Assembly (NCBI GenBank): GCA_036768485.1
Contig: JAVLUZ010000273.1
Span: 314,963 to 378,962 of the forward strand
Direction of reading: 5' to 3'
DNA length: 64,000 nt
DNA from: Mermis nigrescens
Taxonomy: Eukaryota > Nematoda > Enoplea > Mermithida > Mermithidae
Shown: positions 6,782 to 62,771 of the stretch, piece after piece
Layout of the letters: the number at the start of each line of letters is the position of its first letter
Position numbering within the stretch: position 1 is the first letter of the stretch
The notes under the pieces: generated by a model
Databases searched by the model: none
Told to the model about the DNA's origin: nothing
Seen by the model: only the letters and a program-made list of their open reading frames with translations
Program-made: the position numbers and the translations under genes

Positions 6782-8324
<1,543 letters not shown>

Positions 8325-28219: not shown

Positions 28220-35741
<7,522 letters not shown>

Positions 35742-37815: not shown

Positions 37816-39562
37816 AGTGCTGGTCAAGCTGCAATATCCAAGGGGTCCTATACCAGCTGCGAGACCCTGGATCTTTAGCACCTGAACCGCACATACTGGT
37901 TACCCGGATGCTTGAGGCAGCTAAGCCTAGAATTCCTATGTTTGCTTACTTACTTGACCCCAATTAACACAAACGCGCGAGATTTATTACGATCTCCAGC
38001 CAAAAAATACTTCCCGAGAAAACCAACTCTAGCTTGTTTTCTGTGTCCATATGGCCGAAAGATTTTAGGTTCCTTAGAGGATAAGAACATGAGTAAATAA
38101 CAGCAGAGTGCTCTTGCCAAACAGATTATCTTTTGTAATACCGTATTTATTGTAATAAACCGCGCCCTCTAATAGACAGCCCACCTGCAAAGCGAAGTTA
38201 TAAACAGCGCCCTCTAATAGTGAGCCACCTGCTATTGTATGAATGCTGTCCTTAGTTTAATGTGTCCTTGAATACAATTTCTTGGCCGAAAAGCAGTCCA
38301 AACTCAATATAAGAACATGGGATATTATTTTTATGCAAAAATGCCAAAAATAAGACAATTGATGAAGTGATTGAGATTGAAATTGTAAAAATATTTCGTT
38401 AGTTTGTTCAGTAATGAAGAAATTTGATGCTTTTTGGGTAAAATCAAATGAAAAAAGTTATAAGACAGCGCACCTTCAAGCTGAAAAAGTTATAGACAGC
38501 GCACTGTTTATTAGAATAAATACGGTATTAAGTGATTTTGTTAAAATTTTCAGGAATATTTTAAAGGATTCTTTCCAAAAGAATAATAATAAAAAGGAGC
38601 CGACCTGTTAACTTAGGCAACATATTTAATGCTAGTGGATCACAAAAAAATCTACCAGGTCGACTGAAGCTATAGTCTGTTTCACATAACTTCGTGCATA
38701 AATTCTAAGAATTTTCATCGACAGTAAGTCGAGGGTTACGATAATTATATATCAGATCAATGCTATAATGGCAATCTGCCAGCTTATTGTCGGAGATGGT
38801 TTTAAAATTTATGACCGAAGTTGTGTGAAACAGACTATAGCTATCTTAAAAGGCACTACTGCGCGTGTCAAATCCAAGACACTAAAAAATATAAGCGCGA
38901 GTCCGTTCCGTGAGTTCGTTTTACTTAACGACTAGATAATTAGGAAAAGAACGCGAATATTAAGACATAAATGCGAGAATGAATTAGCATAAGGACATTT
39001 TAGAAAAAAGCACGCTGATAATAAATAAGCGGAAAGAGCAAATAGACACATATGTTGTACATAGGCATAAAGATGAAAACGTAATTTTATAAGATACTAA
39101 GTATAGTAAGTATGATATAACATGGTGACCAATTTGGTATCAAATCGCATTCTAAGCAAGTACCGATTTCGTTGCTCAGATTTGTAGTATGAAAAATGTA
39201 GATAAATTTTTAATATAAAAAGGGGTAAATTGGTCCTGGAAAATGTGGTTGTCATCTAGGCGTCGAAAGACACTAACGGAAAGCTCTGTGATTATGTCTT
39301 TGCCAGGCATTGAACCAAATGATCGGCGTTTGCGTGGTAAAAGCACTATTGAACAAAGATGAAACGCAGATACTGCTATGTATATGTAGGTATGTTTCTG
39401 TTTTTCGATCCAGTCAAGTAGTTCACGAAATTGATCATATCGATGAAATATTCAGATATTTCTAAATCCACAAAACCAATCCCGCTTTTACTGTCGTCAG
39501 CACAATGTAGCTCGTTTCCGATTTCGATTGACGAAGTACCACCAGTTTTCAGATTCCTTTGC
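37816..39562. other. No protein gene seen; two 16-bp direct repeats and a T-family MITE
   Basis: CAGCGCCCTCTAATAG or a near match appears twice near 38160-38220. Otherwise AT-rich. The downstream end of the snoRNA host transcript may fall here. Confidence 0.4.
38675..38835. mobile_element. Tc1/mariner-like MITE family T, copy 2
   Basis: 161 bp with inverted ends GTCTGTTTCACATAACTT and AAGTTGTGTGAAACAGAC, flanked by TA at 38673-38674 and 38836-38837. A third, left-truncated relative lies at about 37690-37815. Confidence 0.8.
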
Positions 39563-39628
39563 ACTGAAAAATGCATTGTTTAACATCCACAAGCGGCAGA
39601 AATCATACAAAATTAGATGAACGATTTA

Positions 39629-39686
39629 TCAGAACTCTAACCTACATAAATTAAACATTATCAAATAATCAGAATAAGCAATACAA
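39629..39686 (-). ncRNA. Box C/D snoRNA, family 2, copy a (C box weak)
   Basis: D box CTGA (39632-39629) with guide TAGGTTAGAGTT and internal CTGA (39672-39669). The C box position has decayed. Box D is 65 nt from the acceptor at 39564. Confidence 0.45.
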
Positions 39687-39853
39687 ACACCTAAAAAACT
39701 TATTGTATAATTCATAACTGCGAAAGCAATAATCTACAACATAGCTACATATATTATTCAATGCAACAAGGAAGTTTTACGCATTGGAGTAGACAAGGGG
39801 GTCATTTATATTATTGCGAGTTGATAACGATTTTCAACGAAAAAATTAACGAC

Positions 39854-40051
39854 CATACCTGGGCGTGGAGGGGGTTGTGGGGGAAGGTATTCAATTTTTT
39901 TGTTTTTCTCGCAATTTTTTGATGCCGATAGATAGTGCTCGATGAGAAACGTTGAAAATGGTGTTTTTTCGCCATACCACAATTTTTAAGGTCATTTTTT
40001 GACCTTTGAGAAAATCTTGCACCCCCAGAACTTTGGTGGCGCCCACCTATG
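39854..40051. mobile_element. Family Q copy 7, within the snoRNA array
   Basis: From CATACCTGGGCGTGGAGG to GGTGGCGCCCACCTATG; flanks TTAACGAC and GTAACGAC (7 of 8). Confidence 0.8.
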
Positions 40052-40346
40052 GTAACGACTATTAGAAATCACATTTAACAAATGTTCAATCATTGCGTAA
40101 GTTCACATTCCCCGACATATGTATTTATACTTGAATTTTCGGACATGAGAGGCGACAAATAGTTCGCTTACCAGGCATCAGCCTGCAAACAGTCGCCGTT
40201 CCGGGAAAGACTCGCTTCGTGTCCTTCAGGCAGTCGATTTATATTTGGTCATAAAAGACTTATGGGATAAAACCTGAATAAAAATGTCATTTAATGCTGC
40301 ACAGTTCATTCATACAGAAACACTAAATTTATACCCAATTGAAAAA

Positions 40347-40420
40347 TCAGATGCAAATTTTCCTACATACTCGTATGTACGATAATTCAGCCGGGTAAAC
40401 GGCAAACAAAGGCTCATCAT
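40347..40420 (-). ncRNA. Box C/D snoRNA, family 1, copy 1
   Basis: Minus strand: C box ATGATGA (40420-40414), D' box CTGA (40390-40387), D box CTGA (40350-40347). The guide before D' contains GCCGTTTACCCG, complementary to 28S rRNA CGGGTAAACGGC. Box D is 73 nt from the acceptor at 40274. Confidence 0.75.
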
Positions 40421-42352
40421 TTATGTATATCAAGATAAAGCAAATATTTCATGTAAGCTTTTACTAAGCCAAAATTTTAAGAAAATGATTCTCGAGATCA
40501 TCGATTCCTGGAAAGACCCCCTCAGGCGTTCTGGACCAAAACCTATTGCTTGAACCAAAGCGTAAAACGACGTTTAATAGCATAATTTTAATTACATACA
40601 CATTTTTTCTAGTATCAAACTTATAAACTCTTCCATTATCTCGGATATATTTGACGTTAAAGGTCATTTCATTGTCCTTATTGTTATTTGTTTTCATTCA
40701 AAACCATGAATATTCATGAAGAATAAAATATAGCAAATTAGCAATACATTATGTATCAAAATTTGACATTAAATAACAAAAAATTACTCATTTACCCACT
40801 CAAGAAAACTCCATTTACTTCCCCCAGAGCTTACATTTGTGTATCGCCTACCTAACACAATTTTAAGAAAAAATGATTGCAGCACGAATATTTTGTCTTG
40901 TATAAAACATATTTTGCGTCAAATATGTAAGTCTTGTGTCACTTTTATTTTCTGTTATGTAACTAGCAATCCAACTAGTTTTCACGCAGTCAGATTTTCA
41001 ATTTTCTCTACAGCCACATTAAACAATTTGAGAACTTGCGTTTTTGAATGAGAAAAACGCGGTCTTTCAAGTGCTGCGTTGTTATTGCAAATCTAGCGAT
41101 TATTGAGATATGATTGAAAAACATCAAGATTCTTCTCCTTTCAAAATGCGTAATTACAGAAATTGAGAGCCCGAACTTAGGCTATATTAAGTCAGATTTA
41201 TGCATATAAGAGTTTGTAGTACCTCAGTTACATCTGTTGCTTTTAGAATCTCTCGCATATAATTATTTCGAAAATTGAAAGATTGTGGCTAATTAAAACC
41301 AAAAAGGTTTTAAATAATTCTTTTGAGCAAGCCTGCCGTCATAAGTAACATCCCAAGGTTTTAACTCTGTCATATGATACCATTGTAGCACATTTATTAC
41401 AAGCTGTCTCGAGTGGCCCTAATCTGGGGCCTACTTGAGATGCCAAATATGTGAAAAAACTTTTCCAATGACACCAGTTTGGTGCTTTGCATGTCAGCAG
41501 CCAAAGCATTATCGCACAAGTAAAATTCAATGAATACATAAGATTTACAAAAAGCCAAATCTCAGAAATCGCTACAAGTATCCCGTGCGATGGTATCATA
41601 AAAAATTAATAAACGATTTATGAGAACCGCCTAAAATCACTAAATAATCAAAATGTTCATCGTAGCAACCTAAAACTTTCTACAGTAAGAGATGTAATTT
41701 TAAAAGCAGCGGTACCTAGTTAAATCTTAGTTATATATTATTCAATTGAATGAGGATATTATCTGCATTGTAATAAATAAGGCAATTCGTATTATTATTG
41801 TTGAGCAGATGAGTATCAATGCCTTTCTACGCAAAACACAAGTAGAAATCATATTCAACAATTTGCCAACCATCTGGGAGACCAGAATTCGTATAAAATG
41901 CAATAAATGACTTTCGATTGCTGCCATACATGTTATGCGGGGATTCCCATTGGAAAAGTCCCCCCCCCACAGAAAAATTTTCACCCCTACTACCTTCTAA
42001 AATTTTTTCACCCATTCCACAGAATTCGTGATTTCTCTAAAAATTCGCATAAAACGTGTTTTTTAAAATGTTAAATTTTCGGCGCTAAACTAATTTTCTT
42101 TGTTCAATTTAATACAAAACTGAAATTCGCAGTAGCTGAAATGATTCTGATGCGAAGCTAACAATTAGTCCAGTTACCAGACATCGCTTGAGAGGAAGAC
42201 ATGTCGTTCCTGGAGAAGCCCGTTTCGTAGCTATCAAGCCGTCGGTTTATACTTGAGTTTGTCAATCGAACCTAGATTAAGAGAAAATTTAATGTTATAT
42301 AATACATGCATAACTTATATATTTATAGAAGGGCTAAATGAGTTATTAGCTG

Positions 42353-42418
42353 TCAGATATGCAAATTTTCCTACACGTAATAATTCAGCCGGGTAAACGG
42401 CAAACAAAAGCTCATCAT
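42353..42418 (-). ncRNA. Box C/D snoRNA, family 1, copy 2
   Basis: C box ATGATGA (42418-42412) and D box CTGA (42356-42353) with the intact 12-nt guide. A short terminal stem TAGCT/AGCTA can form outside the boxes. Box D is 81 nt from the acceptor at 42272. Confidence 0.75.
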
Positions 42419-42607
42419 TTAAGCTATAAAGCAAACATGCGTGGGAATTTCACTGTTTCAGAATGTTAAAAATTCAAGCAAATCACTTACATGCAGATCA
42501 TTTCCGATTTCGGCTTTCTCGGAATAACCAATTCCTGTTGGCTAAAAAGTATGTCATTTAAAAATCATGACAAACTACGTACATATATGATAAAAATGAA
42601 CAATTTA

Positions 42608-42661
42608 TCAGAACTCTAACCTAAAAATCATTCGTTATCAAATAATCAAAATAATCATCAT
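42608..42661 (-). ncRNA. Box C/D snoRNA, family 2, copy b
   Basis: C box ATGATGA (42661-42655) and D box CTGA (42611-42608), preceded by the same TTTTTAGGTTAGAGTT. Box D is 66 nt from the acceptor at 42542. Confidence 0.6.
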
Positions 42662-43141
42662 AGAAATCAAAAACCTTCTACAGTAAGACTTCTAATTGTG
42701 GAAGCAGTATTCCATTGCTACATGCGTATGTAAAGGTACCTTAATTCAATATTTTTCAATGCAACATGAATGTTTTCTTATTGTAATAAACAGGGTAATC
42801 TGTGTATCAAGTCATTTATATTATCAAAGCAAATTATGACTTTTCTGCATAAAACCATTTTAGCAACAACCTCAATTAAATAGTTATCTTATTTTAACGC
42901 TTACTCTTTAACCTAACGTACAGTAAGTCACACACGTGCGTTGGGGGATATGGAATTCTTCAAGTCATAGATCCAGCCCATTTTCTTCCCTAGTTTGAAG
43001 CAAACGAACCGTTCAAATGTTCCTCCTCCTTATTTTTTGTTTTGTTGCAAAATTATCACACATTTTCATCAATAGAAAATGCAACCAATCTTGTCTCAAT
43101 TTCGAAAAATCAATTCCAAAAATGCTTTTACGGGTCAAGAG

Positions 43142-43371
43142 CATACCTGAGCATGGAGGGTTTGGGGGTATGCACCCCCAGAAGCCAAAATACCCCCCAA
43201 AATTCAATTTTTGATTTTTTTTGTTTTTTTCGCAATTTTTTGATGCCAATGGATAGTGCTCGATGAGAAACGTTGAAAAATGGTGTCTTTTCGCCATACC
43301 ACCATTTGGGGCCATTTTTTGACCTTTGAAAAAATCTCGCACCCCCAGAACTTTGGTGCCGCCCACCAATG
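43142..43371. mobile_element. Family Q copy 8, within the snoRNA array
   Basis: From CATACCTGAGCATGGAGG to GGTGCCGCCCACCAATG with exact TSD GTCAAGAG (43134-43141 and 43372-43379). Confidence 0.86.
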
Positions 43372-44281
43372 GTCAAGAGGCTGCTAAGAAAAGCAAAAAA
43401 ATCTAAAACGATGAAATGACACGACACAATGTCATCTAATTGCTTATACGCCTTTTTTATACAATTCGTTCTAACGACTTTTATTGCACATTTCCAATGT
43501 GCAATAAAAGTCGCTAGAACAAAAATTACCCCTCTCAAAGAAAATTTTGTTTACTCCCCCAATACTCTGGATCGTTTGCATACACGAGGTGGGTAAAAAA
43601 CGAATCCTCTATCGAACATTGTAAATTCTTAACGACTACAGCAAATCGAATGCGGTTTGCTTTGATAGGAACCTGATTATCTCCGTATTAAAACTTTATA
43701 AAGTGCTTATTACCGATTCATTTTTTCGAAACATACACACAAATTAACAAAACTCGCTTTTTCGAGTCATAATTCATAGTCCTACTACCAATTAAATGCT
43801 TACGATGAAGTTAAAATGCTCTGAAGAATCAAAATTGTCGATGAATTCTTCTATTTTCTATCGGTTTAACTGACAAAGCTGGTCAAAAGGGCTAAAAAGC
43901 ACTAGAAGACGCACTATTACCTGATTAAATTAGTTCACATTGGCTATTTTTATCACTTTCACATCTGACATTCAAAAAAGGCCAGAACTCTGAATTTAAA
44001 TGGTCCTCAATTTTGGGATTTTACCTTCCCTCAACTTTGGACCTTAGGAAATCATGGCAGCAATCTTCACACTGAACTTTGTCGTAAGCTAAGTATTGCA
44101 ATGCACAACCGAAACACATGTTCAATTAGCAAGCATCAATCTGAGAAAAGCTTATCGCTCCTGCAAAAGCTGACTTCGTGGCCTGTTTCATCATAAAAGA
44201 TTTCTGGGATCATACCTGAATAAAGAAGTCTTTAACAGTTAATTTACATACAGCACAGCTAAATGTGTACCCGATTGAAAG

Positions 44282-44345
44282 TCAGATAAAAATTTTTCAA
44301 CACATGATAATTCAGCCGGGTAAACGGCAAACAAAAGCTCATCAT
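44282..44345 (-). ncRNA. Box C/D snoRNA, family 1, copy 3
   Basis: C box ATGATGA (44345-44339), D' CTGA and D CTGA (44285-44282); the guide is intact. Box D is 66 nt upstream of the acceptor at 44216. Confidence 0.75.
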
Positions 44346-44576
44346 TGAAATAAAAAATAAACACGCGTGAAATATTTCACTCGTTTGTAGAACGTTGAAA
44401 ACTTAAGAAGAGTGTGTACCTCCTTAGATACATCCCACTCCTAATTTCAGTTGAGATAATCGATTTCTGTGAAATGACAAAATACAATTGTTCAAAAATC
44501 ACAACTACGTAATAAGATGTCAGTACATGCAAACATTTATGTACATACATACATACCATAAAAACTAAAAACCAAT

Positions 44577-44629
44577 TTATTCAACTCCCTAAAAATCATT
44601 CGTCATCAAAAGATCAAAATGATCATCAT
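44577..44629 (-). ncRNA. Box C/D snoRNA, family 2, copy c (decayed)
   Basis: The C box ATGATGA is intact (44629-44623) but box D is altered to TTGA and the guide is damaged. A more decayed relative lies near 41608-41660. Confidence 0.4.
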
Positions 44630-45185
44630 AAGAAAGAACCTGAAACTTTCCACAGTAAGACTTGAAACTGTAAAAGCAGTAATCGCCTGTTAAATCTCAG
44701 TCGCACATTATTCAATCGAAAAGGACGTTCTCTGCATTAGAATAAATAAGGTAATCCTTAATATTTTTGATAAGAGTGACATTAATGCTTTTCTACGTAA
44801 AAACAATTATATAAATCATATTTAACAATTTGTCAACCATATGCGAAAAAGTTAAATACGTTACTTTCATTTTTATTTAGCAATCGATTTTGTGATTGCT
44901 GCTAATTTCAGCATCTTAATGCTTAATTCTTTCAAGTTGACTTTGCAGTAAGTATATACTAGAATGATTCTGATGTGCAGAGGACACGTAGATCATTTAC
45001 CAGGCATCAGCCTAAGAAACGTACGTCGCTTCTGAAAAACCGCGTCGTCGTCACTGTCAGGCAGTCGATTCATATTTCATAACAATAATAACAGATTTCT
45101 GGAATCAAGCCTGAATAAAATGACATTCAATGCTGTATTTGTAGTTCATTTATATAGAACAGCTAAATATGTACCTAATTAAAGG

Positions 45186-45251
45186 TCAGATGCAAAAATT
45201 TTCTTACACGCGATAATTCAGACGGGTAAACGGCAAACAAAAGCTCATCAT
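45186..45251 (-). ncRNA. Box C/D snoRNA, family 1, copy 4
   Basis: C box ATGATGA (45251-45245), D box CTGA (45189-45186). The guide core is intact and only the base next to D' differs (T for G). Box D is 75 nt from the acceptor at 45111. Nearly identical to copy 5. Confidence 0.75.
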
Positions 45252-46489
45252 TTGTATGTATATGAGAAAACAAATATATGTTCAAAAATGTTGATAAGAG
45301 GAACATTAGTGCTTTTCTACGTAAAAAAAATTATGGAAATCATATTTAACAATTTGTCAACCATATGCGAAAAAGTTAAATACGTTACATAAATCTTTCT
45401 TTTAGAATATTCTTTTTGTTATTGATGTTATTACTATTATTATAGTACCTATTCATAGTATTCGGGCACATCGATGTAGATTTTCTATTCCTGTCTTGCT
45501 CTCGCTATCTATTTACTCATTGTGTTTCCTCACGTGATTGAACAGGCCAGTTAGGGCAGTATTTCAAGTGTAGGTTTACAATGTTTTTTGTTTTTTTTGT
45601 TTTTTTATTATTTATTATTCCATTTATTTTTTAATTATTTATATATTCTCTATTAATGTTTCTTTTTCATATATAATATTTATGGTATCTATAATGTTAA
45701 TTCGTTTATTTATTTATTCAATTAATTAATTTTTTCCCTTTTTTTACGATGAGAGGCAGTCTAGCCGCCTAGACTGGTGCCGCTAGGTTGCAGTGACAGT
45801 CAGAGGATTAAAGGCACGAAACTGTAGCAACCCAGTTCCTCTCTGATGACCTCGTCTATTTATGATTTACGATTTTTTTCTTCTCTTTCCTCTTCTACGT
45901 TTTGCTTTTCCTTTCTTCTTCTTCTTTTTTCTCTTCCTTTTCCTTACCTTTTTGATGTAATTTTCGTTTATAATTCTGCCTACTTTTTCTGTTTCATTTA
46001 GACTTTTGCGCCTCATAAAACATGTAATCTCTCATAATATAATTATTTTTAGGTACACTTGTGCTATTTTACGTGTCCTTTTTGTTTCTTTCTTACTAAT
46101 AGCATGATTCACGCACCTCTATATCTGTCTTTCTTTCTTCTTCTTTTCAATATTTGCTTGGTTATTTATTTCTTTTCTTTTTCTCCTCATTATTTCTTTT
46201 TGTTTATTTCTTTTGCTTCTTTCTCGTATTGATGACTTCTTACTATTTGCAGTATGTACTAGAATGATTCTGATGTGCAGAGGACACGTAGATCATTTAC
46301 CAGGCATCAACCTAAGAAACGTACGTCGCTTCTGAAAAACCGCGTCGTCGTCACTGTCAGGCAGTCGATTCATATTTCATAACAATAATAACAGATTTCT
46401 GGAATCAAACCTGAATAAAATGACATTCAATGCTGTATTTGTAGTTCATTTACATATATAGAACAGCTAAATATGTACCTAATTAAAGG

Positions 46490-46555
46490 TCAGATGCAAA
46501 AATTTTCTTACACGCGATAATTCAGACGGGTAAACGGCAAACAAAAGCTCATCAT
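46490..46555 (-). ncRNA. Box C/D snoRNA, family 1, copy 5
   Basis: Same sequence as copy 4 across the whole core, including the base change next to D'; the pair arose by a recent duplication. Acceptor at 46411. Confidence 0.75.
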
Positions 46556-47008
46556 TTGTATGTATATGAGAAAACAAATATATGTTCAAAAATGTTGATA
46601 AGAGGAACATTAGTGCTTTTCTACGTAAAAAAATTATGGAAATCATATTTAACAATTTGTCAACCATATGCGAAAAAGTTAAATACGTTACTTTCATTTT
46701 TTATTTAGCAATCGATTTTATGATTGCTGCTAGTTTCTGCATTATAATGCTTTATTGTTTCAAGCTGACTTTGCAGTACTGTACTAGAATGATTCTGATG
46801 TGCAGAGGACACGTAGATTATTTACCAGCATCAGCCTAGGAAACGCACGTCGCTTCTCAAAAAACCGGCGTCGTCGTGACTATCAGGCAGTCGATTCATA
46901 TTTCATAATATTAATAATATATATATTTCTGGAATCAAGCCTGAAGAAAATGACATTCAATGCAGTATATGTAGTTCAAGAGGAGCTAAATATGCACCTG
47001 ATTAAAGG

Positions 47009-47074
47009 TCAGATGCGAAAATTTTCCTACACACGATAATTCAGCCGGGTAAACGGCAAACAGAAGCTCATCAT
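47009..47074 (-). ncRNA. Box C/D snoRNA, family 1, copy 6
   Basis: C box ATGATGA (47074-47068), D box CTGA (47012-47009), guide intact. The downstream exon starts at 46940. Confidence 0.75.
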
Positions 47075-47487
47075 TTATATCTGAGTAAACTAGTATGTTT
47101 AAAAATCTTAATAAGAGTAACAATAATGCTTTTCAACGTAAAAAAACAATTATAGAAATCATATTTAACAATTCGTCAACCATATGCGAAAAAGTTAAAT
47201 ACCTTGCTTTCATTTTTTGTTTAGCAATCGATTTTATGATTGCTGCTAGTTTCTGCATGATAATGCTTTATTGTTTCAAGTTGACTTTAGATCATTTACA
47301 AGGCATCAGCCTAAGAAACGCACGTCACTTCTGAAAAAAACTGCGGCGTCGTAACTATCAGGCAGTCGATTCATATTTCATGATAATAATAAAATATTTC
47401 TGGAATCAAGACTGAATAAAATGACATTCAATGCTGTAGATGTAGTTAATTTATATAGAAGAGCTAAATATGCACCTAAATTAAAGG

Positions 47488-47553
47488 TCAGATGCAAAAA
47501 TTTTCTTACATATGATAATTCAGCCGGGTAAACAGCAAACAAAAGCTGATCAT
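47488..47553 (-). ncRNA. Box C/D snoRNA, family 1, copy 7 (decaying)
   Basis: The C box is altered to ATGATCA (47553-47547) and the guide has one change (GCTGTTTACCCG). D' and D boxes remain. Probably a degenerate member. Confidence 0.55.
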
Positions 47554-47596
47554 TTATATATGAAAAAACAAATGTTGGTTCAAAAATTGCACTCAT

Positions 47597-47842
47597 GGTC
47601 AGTCATACACGTGGGGGTTTGGGAAGTCTACCACCCCACCTCCTGAAAATAAAGAATGGGGAAATTTTCGCGGAAAAAAAGCAAAATGGAGGCAAAAAAA
47701 CGGATTAGAATCAAAAATTTTTTTAAATAGTTTAAATTGACTGGAAACAGTGTACTAACGTAGTTTTACCGCTATTTTAGCACTTAAGGCCCAAAAAATC
47801 TCAATTTTTACCTCCCCTTCCAATTCGACCATGCTGTGCATC
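47597..47842. repeat. Family R copy 2, within the snoRNA array
   Basis: Resembles R1 from CATACACGTGGGGGTTTGG to CATGCTGTGCATCTATG. Flanking octamers do not match clearly. Confidence 0.55.
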
Positions 47843-48019
47843 TATGCTCATTGCACTTAGATAGGGAGAAAATTACGCAACTACATACTTTCATATATCA
47901 AGATCGTTCTTCGGTTTTCTCGAAGTGTGTAATCGATCCCTTTGAGCTGGAATGTACATCGTTTCAAAATCATATCTAGACTACATACGTTTACATGCTA
48001 AAAATGAACAAACGATTTA

Positions 48020-48074
48020 TCAGAACTCTAACCTAAAAATCATAACGTTTTCAAACAATCAGAATGATCATCAT
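48020..48074 (-). ncRNA. Box C/D snoRNA, family 2, copy d
   Basis: C box ATGATGA (48074-48068), an internal CTGA (48062-48059) and D box CTGA (48023-48020). The element before box D reads TTTTTAGGTTAGAGTT. Box D is 73 nt from the acceptor at 47947. I do not recognise the target. Confidence 0.6.
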
Positions 48075-48129
48075 TTAAAAAACACTTCAACAACGTGCCC
48101 TCTGTGCACTAGATAGGAAGTTTCTCACC

Positions 48130-49198: not shown

Positions 49199-62771
<13,573 letters not shown>

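Follow-up and report, generated by a model that had tools for sequence, protein, structure and literature searches.

Between 48.1 and 39.6 kb, the minus strand of the window (the whole 64-kb stretch of DNA analysed here) carries 12 homologous C/D units, which homology comparison divides into two families, A (n = 7) and B (n = 5). All units lie on this one strand. The first-pass annotation had described 11 C/D-like units alternating with short exons on the same strand; the units themselves stand and the count does not, homology giving seven A and five B. It had also placed them just downstream of Prp8 and in the same orientation, as we find: this gene, identified by a high score against chains including one named hPrp8, has its coding end at ~49.2 kb, ~1.1 kb before the first unit. 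Among the 120 of 436 hits listed for a Prp8 exon, the best by E-value is 83% identical, and a reverse-transcriptase fragment gives 16 hits. From Prp8 downwards, the features are the following.

49202..50425, minus strand: last coding pieces of Prp8
48020..48074, minus strand: B1, SNORD28-like C/D snoRNA (C box to D box), boxes intact
47889..47946, minus strand: predicted exon after B1, acceptor 73 nt past box D, GT donor, boundaries read from the sequence
47488..47553, minus strand: A1, SNORD87-like C/D snoRNA, C box ATGATCA, one guide change (C to T) that keeps a G-U pair
47300..47411, minus strand: predicted exon after A1
47009..47074, minus strand: A2, SNORD87-like C/D snoRNA, intact
46826..46940, minus strand: predicted exon after A2
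46490..46555, minus strand: A3, SNORD87-like C/D snoRNA, intact (Rfam sn2343, 25.1 bits)
46301..46410, minus strand: predicted exon after A3
45186..45251, minus strand: A4, SNORD87-like C/D snoRNA, intact
45001..45110, minus strand: predicted exon after A4
44581..44629, minus strand: B2, degenerate B unit, C box present, D box lost (TTGA)
44282..44345, minus strand: A5, SNORD87-like C/D snoRNA, intact (Rfam SNORD87, 25.7 bits)
44130..44215, minus strand: predicted exon after A5, acceptor retained, donor GT changed to CT
42608..42661, minus strand: B3, SNORD28-like C/D snoRNA, boxes and guide intact
42491..42541, minus strand: predicted exon after B3, acceptor 66 nt past box D, donor GTAAGT
42353..42418, minus strand: A6, SNORD87-like C/D snoRNA, intact, 5-bp external stem
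42178..42271, minus strand: predicted exon after A6
41621..41660, minus strand: B4, decayed B unit, both boxes altered
40347..40420, minus strand: A7, SNORD87-like C/D snoRNA, intact, longer D'-to-D stretch
40172..40273, minus strand: predicted exon after A7
39629..39685, minus strand: B5, B unit, C box lost, D box and guide retained (Rfam SNORD28, 18.5 bits)
39505..39563, minus strand: predicted last exon, bounded 5' by the acceptor, with an arbitrary 3' limit (39505)

An exact RTGATGA together with an exact CTGA, the box criterion of C/D snoRNAs, is found in eight of the 12 units (A2-A7, B1 and B3), i.e. in six of the seven A copies and two of the five B copies. The defects are the altered C box of A1 (ATGATCA) and the absence of box D in B2, of box C in B5 and of both in B4. 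Between 39.0 and 48.8 kb the exact RTGATGA occurs ten times on the minus strand, nine times in units and once (44194) inside the predicted A5 exon, and not at all on the plus strand. A descriptor fitted to family A (RTGATGA, 19-30 nt, CTGA, 18-45 nt, CTGA) has six matches on the minus strand of this region and none on its plus strand or in the remaining window, with a mean of 0.004 and a maximum of 1 in 500 dinucleotide shuffles; the B units do not match it. The distance from C to D is 54-74 nt in the nine copies tested. Contiguous terminal stems measure 3, 3, 2, 2, 1, 5 and 2 bp in A1 to A7, 4 bp in B1 and 6 bp in B3, so that three of these nine copies (A6, B1, B3) have at least 4 bp and two (A1, A2) have 3 bp. 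The folds of A2, A3, A6, B1 and B3 are not better than those of shuffles.

The D' guide of family A is complementary to a site in 28S rRNA that is universally conserved. Its core, TTGCCGTTTACCC, occurs seven times in the window with at most one mismatch, always within the array, against 0.06 expected. Pairing was scored on two eukaryotic 28S loci, which are rRNA of other species and not of animals, for six of the seven A copies (A4 has the letters of A3). At each locus the best 28S duplex of all six copies lies at CGGGTAAACGGC, adjoining box D', with a narrow lead at locus L002 for A1 (31.0 vs 30.5) and A2 (33.5 vs 32.5). In A2-A7, counting from the box, the guide forms 15 contiguous pairs, three of them G-U, at CGGGTAAACGGCGGG in both loci, and the D+5 nucleotide is a G. 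A1 pairs at the same site, but needs four G-U pairs and fails the G-U filter. The real A guide opens with 12 Watson-Crick pairs, a run reached by none of 300 shuffled guides, and its overall score was reached by three of the 300; by pair count, the A1 guide was equalled by 33/300 and 19/300 shuffles and is not clearly above chance.

Rfam lists SNORD87 and/or sn2343 for five of the seven A copies and neither for A1 or A7. Like vertebrate SNORD87 and like sn2343, which we take to be of nematode origin, A has the D' guide UUGCCGUUUACCC followed by the D' box. It differs from both in its weak terminal stem, its seven tandem copies and scores below the Rfam cut-offs (25.7 of 50 for SNORD87, 25.1 of 60 for sn2343); no model matches at its curated cut-off anywhere in the window. 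An excerpt of PMC3349704 reports 28S G3723 as the position guided by SNORD87. Together, the pairing and the Rfam matches support unit A as a putative SNORD87-like 28S guide. Yeast snR190/G2395 was dropped as a relative of family A: its site is in H73 (PMC8536666, in the portion available) and its human counterpart is given as SNORD12/G3878 (PMC11971394, likewise in part), not SNORD87/G3723. In a side search of viral contigs, five matched TTGCCGTTTACCCNNCTGA, none with a C box within the printed 40 nt upstream, and the 28S and 18S patterns had no match.

The guide of family B, GUUAGAGUUCUGAU, is identical to the SNORD28 consensus in B1 and B5, and B3 has the same letters. SNORD28 gives the top bit score for B1 (22.5) and B5 (18.5) against a cut-off of 50; it is listed neither for B3 nor in the 9.8-kb Rfam search at E up to 5, and for B1 the archaeal sR5 and SECIS_1 models have lower E-values. 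Family B has the D guide of vertebrate SNORD28 (U28, host SNHG1) and, unlike it, scores below the Rfam cut-off; human SNORD28 resides in SNHG1, apart from SNORD87, whose host is SNHG6. Against the available rRNA, all non-animal, the B guide gave no signal (234 of 300 shuffled B guides scored equally), and at the site in question the 18S of L002, likewise non-animal, has different letters. Its putative target, the 18S position that corresponds to human C1391, is therefore taken from the Rfam match. SNORD28 is tabulated for 18S-C1391 in an excerpt of PMC6466398. Family B as a 28S guide was rejected, the better duplexes not adjoining a D box.

The distance from box D to the assigned acceptor is 76, 68, 79, 75, 66, 81 and 73 nt in A1 to A7, and 73, 66 and 65 nt in B1, B3 and B5, where it was picked among several AGs; B2 has a better acceptor at 114 nt and a weaker AG at 76, and B4 has none in range. 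An assigned AG acceptor hence lies 65-81 nt past box D in ten of the 12 units, the spacing put forward earlier for this array. As a control we looked at 65-81 nt for an AG preceded by at least 8 or at least 9 pyrimidines of 13. The looser condition holds in 11 of 12 units and at 20% of all positions in the region; the stricter one in 7/7 A units and 0/5 B units, and at 10% of positions. The spacing is therefore well established for A but weak for B. A distance of ~70 nt to the 3' splice site is reported as the rule among vertebrates and also for Drosophila DmSnR60 (PMC1821038, in part). Six of the seven A exons end at a GT donor, A5 having CT, and the splice junctions proposed in the first-pass annotation agree with the acceptors and donors found here. 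The A copies are related to one another, and the features they have in common are not independent.

A snoRNA cluster behind a conserved protein-coding region is also known from Drosophila mfl/Nop60B, where tandem copies of one C/D guide (DmSnR60, four copies) lie one per intron, ~70 nt ahead of the 3' splice site, together with copies of a second small RNA (snm60, two copies; PMC1821038, in part). In that gene both sets of copies belong to introns of variable 3'UTRs (same excerpt). By analogy, the snoRNA introns might be alternative 3' exons and introns of Prp8, with read-through splicing feeding the array; the common strand and the ~1.1 kb between the Prp8 coding end and the first unit fit this. 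Yet the guides differ from those of mfl/Nop60B, the copies here number 7 + 5, and transcripts running from Prp8 into the array are hypothetical. Nothing was found that prefers this scheme to a promoter of the array's own, the sequence above 48.13 kb having been read by eye. We consider it unlikely, though the best placed of the alternatives.

Conservation is unevenly distributed along the units. Over the 15 of 21 A copy pairs that involve A5-A7, the stretch from C to D' is 0.91 identical, against 0.57 for the upstream flank, 0.71 for the 3' part of the intron and 0.67 for the exon. For boxes and guide, this agrees with the earlier remark that boxes, guide, acceptors and most donors are conserved against diverging flanks. 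It also bears on whether this is a pseudogene cluster in decay, a former host gene now mostly unexpressed. Such decay would account for the boxes lost in three of five B units, the altered C box of A1, the lost donor of A5 and the dispersed repeats inserted in introns. But in six of seven A units the guide and the two exact boxes have been retained although flank identity has dropped to 0.57, a pattern indicative of selection acting on several copies that makes wholesale decay rather improbable.

The modules are repeated and divergent in sequence, and the same introns hold other, dispersed repeats (those at 39.9-40.05 and 43.13-43.37 kb also match elsewhere in the window), as one might expect of a transposon or a retroposed snoRNA family standing in tandem by chance. 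The A and B modules, unlike these intron repeats, have no match elsewhere in the 64 kb, and all units share one strand; a transposon is excluded inside this window and very improbable overall. A3 and A4 match at 95% over 484 aligned columns, A4 being a recent duplicate. The ancestral repeat reconstructed from these comparisons is a B-exon-A-exon dimer, from which A-only units were amplified later.

That the predicted exons are functional RNAs themselves (e.g. H/ACA snoRNAs) rather than spliced by-products is barely credible: they can be aligned across all seven A copies, but their conservation is no higher than that of the intron, and an H/ACA or other structured RNA was rejected on the weak consensus fold of the seven stretches (-6.3 kcal/mol, 12 pairs, two changed on both sides). 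Five of six copies of the conserved stretch of intron that follows the A exons were folded, likewise with a weak result. For coding capacity, the statements on frame are based on the A exons, whose lengths (112, 115, 110, 110, 86, 94 and 102 nt) keep no constant frame; the joined exons have 13-21 stops per frame and a longest open stretch of 78 codons (B1 and B3 boundaries being 1-2 nt off). A non-coding host is therefore probable, given exon lengths without a constant frame and an exon conservation (0.67) that does not exceed that of the 3' part of the intron (0.71).

The best reading of the array, well supported as a prediction, is thus a snoRNA host gene of repeated exon and intronic C/D modules. 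This had been proposed before; the guide identities, with a 28S target for A and a SNORD28 match for B, are our addition. We think it very likely that the locus is a non-coding host gene of the Uhg type, in an animal. An animal source is suggested, short of proof, by an actin exon of animal type, by the high Prp8 score and by the SNORD87-type guide. RNA polymerase II would make a single transcript of the minus strand; on splicing, each intron would yield one box C/D snoRNA, positioned 65-81 nt before the intron's 3' splice site, and the short exons would be left as by-products. The predicted substrate of 2'-O-methylation through the D' element of unit A is the 28S G that corresponds to human G3723, the last of the three Gs in GCGCGGGUAAAC; through the D element of unit B it is the 18S C that corresponds to human C1391. 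In the history of the array, the dimer was duplicated, A-only amplification followed (A2-A4), and three of the five B copies decayed.

The host gene had been described as known from no organism, which holds for the exact gene and not for its architecture. Drosophila Uhg genes 1 to 5, 7 and 8 have up to 16 introns and no recognisable ORF in the account given by an excerpt of PMC4430873; there, one snoRNA per intron (with two exceptions) is made by genes dedicated to snoRNA production. Unlike these, the present array has two guide families per repeat unit, in a comparison of gene architecture. The SNORD115 and SNORD116 arrays of placental mammals are likewise tandem C/D repeats in a long non-coding host, imprinted and with up to hundreds of copies (excerpt of PMC11028025), whereas the guides here are conserved ones for rRNA, spaced as usual from the predicted 3' splice site. 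In the literature searched, we found no invertebrate array combining SNORD87 and SNORD28.

Guides like SNORD87 and SNORD28 are here united in one amplified, apparently non-coding animal host gene, with constraint on boxes and guide while exons and introns drift. Tentatively, and with somewhat more doubt than confidence, we propose a non-mammalian tandem-repeat snoRNA gene whose unit pairs an 18S with a 28S guide, and whose birth-and-death amplification perhaps serves guide dosage, so that one promoter may set methylation in both ribosomal subunits. It might then be an invertebrate counterpart of SNORD115/116, small and with assignable rRNA targets. The array also offers predictions for two rRNA methylation sites.

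The first-pass annotation proposed an array of eleven C/D-box-like units on the minus strand. This array was borne out, and homology now resolves 12 units of two families on that strand (48.1-39.6 kb), eight of which (A2-A7, B1 and B3) carry an exact RTGATGA together with an exact CTGA.

47553, 47074, 46555, 45251, 44345, 42418, 40420, minus strand: C boxes of family A (A1-A7, SNORD87-like)
48074, 44629, 42661, 41660, 39685, minus strand: unit starts of family B (B1-B5, SNORD28-like)

In the other units, A1 has ATGATCA as its C box, B2 has lost box D, B5 box C and B4 both. A C..D'..D descriptor, fitted to family A, had six matches on the minus strand at 39.0-48.8 kb and no other match on either strand of the window; when that region was shuffled 500 times with dinucleotides preserved, the mean was 0.004 matches and the maximum 1. 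All seven occurrences in the window of the family A guide core TTGCCGTTTACCC (at most one mismatch) lie inside the array; chance would give 0.06. Terminal stems are of 3 bp or less in six of the nine copies tested. No array unit reached the Rfam cut-off of any family.

The proposed reading, a tandem host gene with intronic C/D modules, is supported, and guide identities are now added to it. Box D precedes the predicted acceptor by 76, 68, 79, 75, 66, 81 and 73 nt in A1-A7 and by 73, 66 and 65 nt in B1, B3 and B5; B2 and B4 fit this spacing poorly. A distance of about 70 nt is the reported vertebrate optimum and is also described for Drosophila DmSnR60 (PMC1821038). An AG with at least 9 of 13 preceding pyrimidines occurs at 65-81 nt in 7/7 A units and 0/5 B units (background 10% of positions), and one with at least 8 of 13 in 11/12 units (background 20%). 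Since the A copies are related, the spacing counts as a single strong observation plus a weak one rather than as ten. The predicted exons following A1-A7 measure 112, 115, 110, 110, 86, 94 and 102 nt, and six of the seven have a GT donor. These variable lengths, and the 13-21 stops in each frame of the joined predicted exons, indicate that the host exons are probably non-coding.

A eukaryotic 28S pattern provided two target loci, both in MAG records with bacterial labels (Gammaproteobacteria and Flavobacteriales) and so on contaminating contigs; Rfam finds eukaryotic LSU in both, and also SSU and 5.8S in one of them, L002. In each locus the top duplex was at CGGGTAAACGGC for 6/6 A copies tested (six of seven were run, A4 being identical in letters to A3). 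Counted from the box, each of the A2-A7 guides forms an unbroken run of 15 pairs, three of them G-U, and places a G at D+5; A1 did not pass this filter. Of 300 shuffled guides, none equalled the main A guide's run of 12 leading Watson-Crick pairs and three reached its overall score; for A1, 33/300 shuffles matched the leading pairs and 19/300 the score. For five of the seven A copies Rfam lists SNORD87 and/or sn2343 below its cut-offs, with guide and D' box common to both sides; neither family is listed for A1 or A7. SNORD87 is the reported guide for 28S G3723, a position reported as methylated (PMC3349704).

In B1, B3 and B5 the D guide is AGGTTAGAGTT followed by CTGA, which, going by animal 18S, should presumably fall at the site of human 18S C1391. 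SNORD28 has the highest Rfam bit score for B1 (22.5) and B5 (18.5), with GUUAGAGUUCUGAU identical; two other models have lower E-values than SNORD28 for B1, and SNORD28 is not among the matches listed for B3 or in a wider Rfam search of the array region. We infer that family B targets 18S at the equivalent of human C1391; the sole 18S used for pairing is non-animal and differs at that site, and against these non-animal rRNAs the guide did no better than shuffled ones (234/300 were as good). SNORD28 is tabulated with target 18S-C1391 and host SNHG1 (PMC6466398).

Boxes and guide had been described as conserved amid diverging flanks, and the copies agree: over the 15 of 21 A copy pairs that involve A5-A7, the stretch between C and D' is the most alike (identity 0.91), followed by D' to D (0.81), the 3' intron (0.71), the exon (0.67), the upstream flank (0.57) and the sequence past the donor (0.52). 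Boxes and guide are retained amid drifting exons, the pattern to be expected of by-product exons. In self-comparison, B-exon-A-exon pairs align to one another (e.g. 42352-42712 with 44281-44684, 68%), an expansion of A alone came later (44951-45430 with 46251-46732, 95%), and neither module has copies outside the array within the window.

The array region holds other elements.

39889-40051 and 43132-43374: insertions of a dispersed repeat within array introns (self-comparison)

This repeat has related copies in other parts of the window, for example near 4, 6, 22-24, 33 and 36-37 kb. At 43464-43527 (minus) there is a near-perfect 28-bp inverted repeat (fold -39 kcal/mol, z -14); several miRNA families match it, all sub-threshold, and a small inverted-repeat element is a likelier reading of it than a miRNA. 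A 47-nt minus-strand segment (ATGGTTGACAAATTGTTAAATATGATTTC...) occurs 3' of A exons in six places (40047-47183), five of the six copies being 62-70% identical to the reference copy, and alignment of five of the six revealed no clear fold. Between A3 and A4, 45430-46245 is of low complexity, A-/G-rich on the minus strand; the alignment of duplicated modules breaks off there, and it looks like an insertion.

Prp8 is confirmed upstream of the array, as first placed, and its coding sequence ends near 49.2 kb. Other features of the window are:

28240-28653, plus strand: actin gene coding exon, N-terminal part
29148-29807, minus strand: reverse-transcriptase fragment (RVT_1 below cut-off; 16 homologues)
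6785-6964 and 8139-8322: long (TA)n arrays, about 180 bases each

The array may have its own promoter or, less probably, be fed by Prp8 read-through, as in the mfl gene (PMC1821038). The architecture predicted here is already known from Uhg genes (PMC4430873), and the mfl cluster is likewise an earlier example (PMC1821038). What is new is this locus itself and its two-guide repeat unit.
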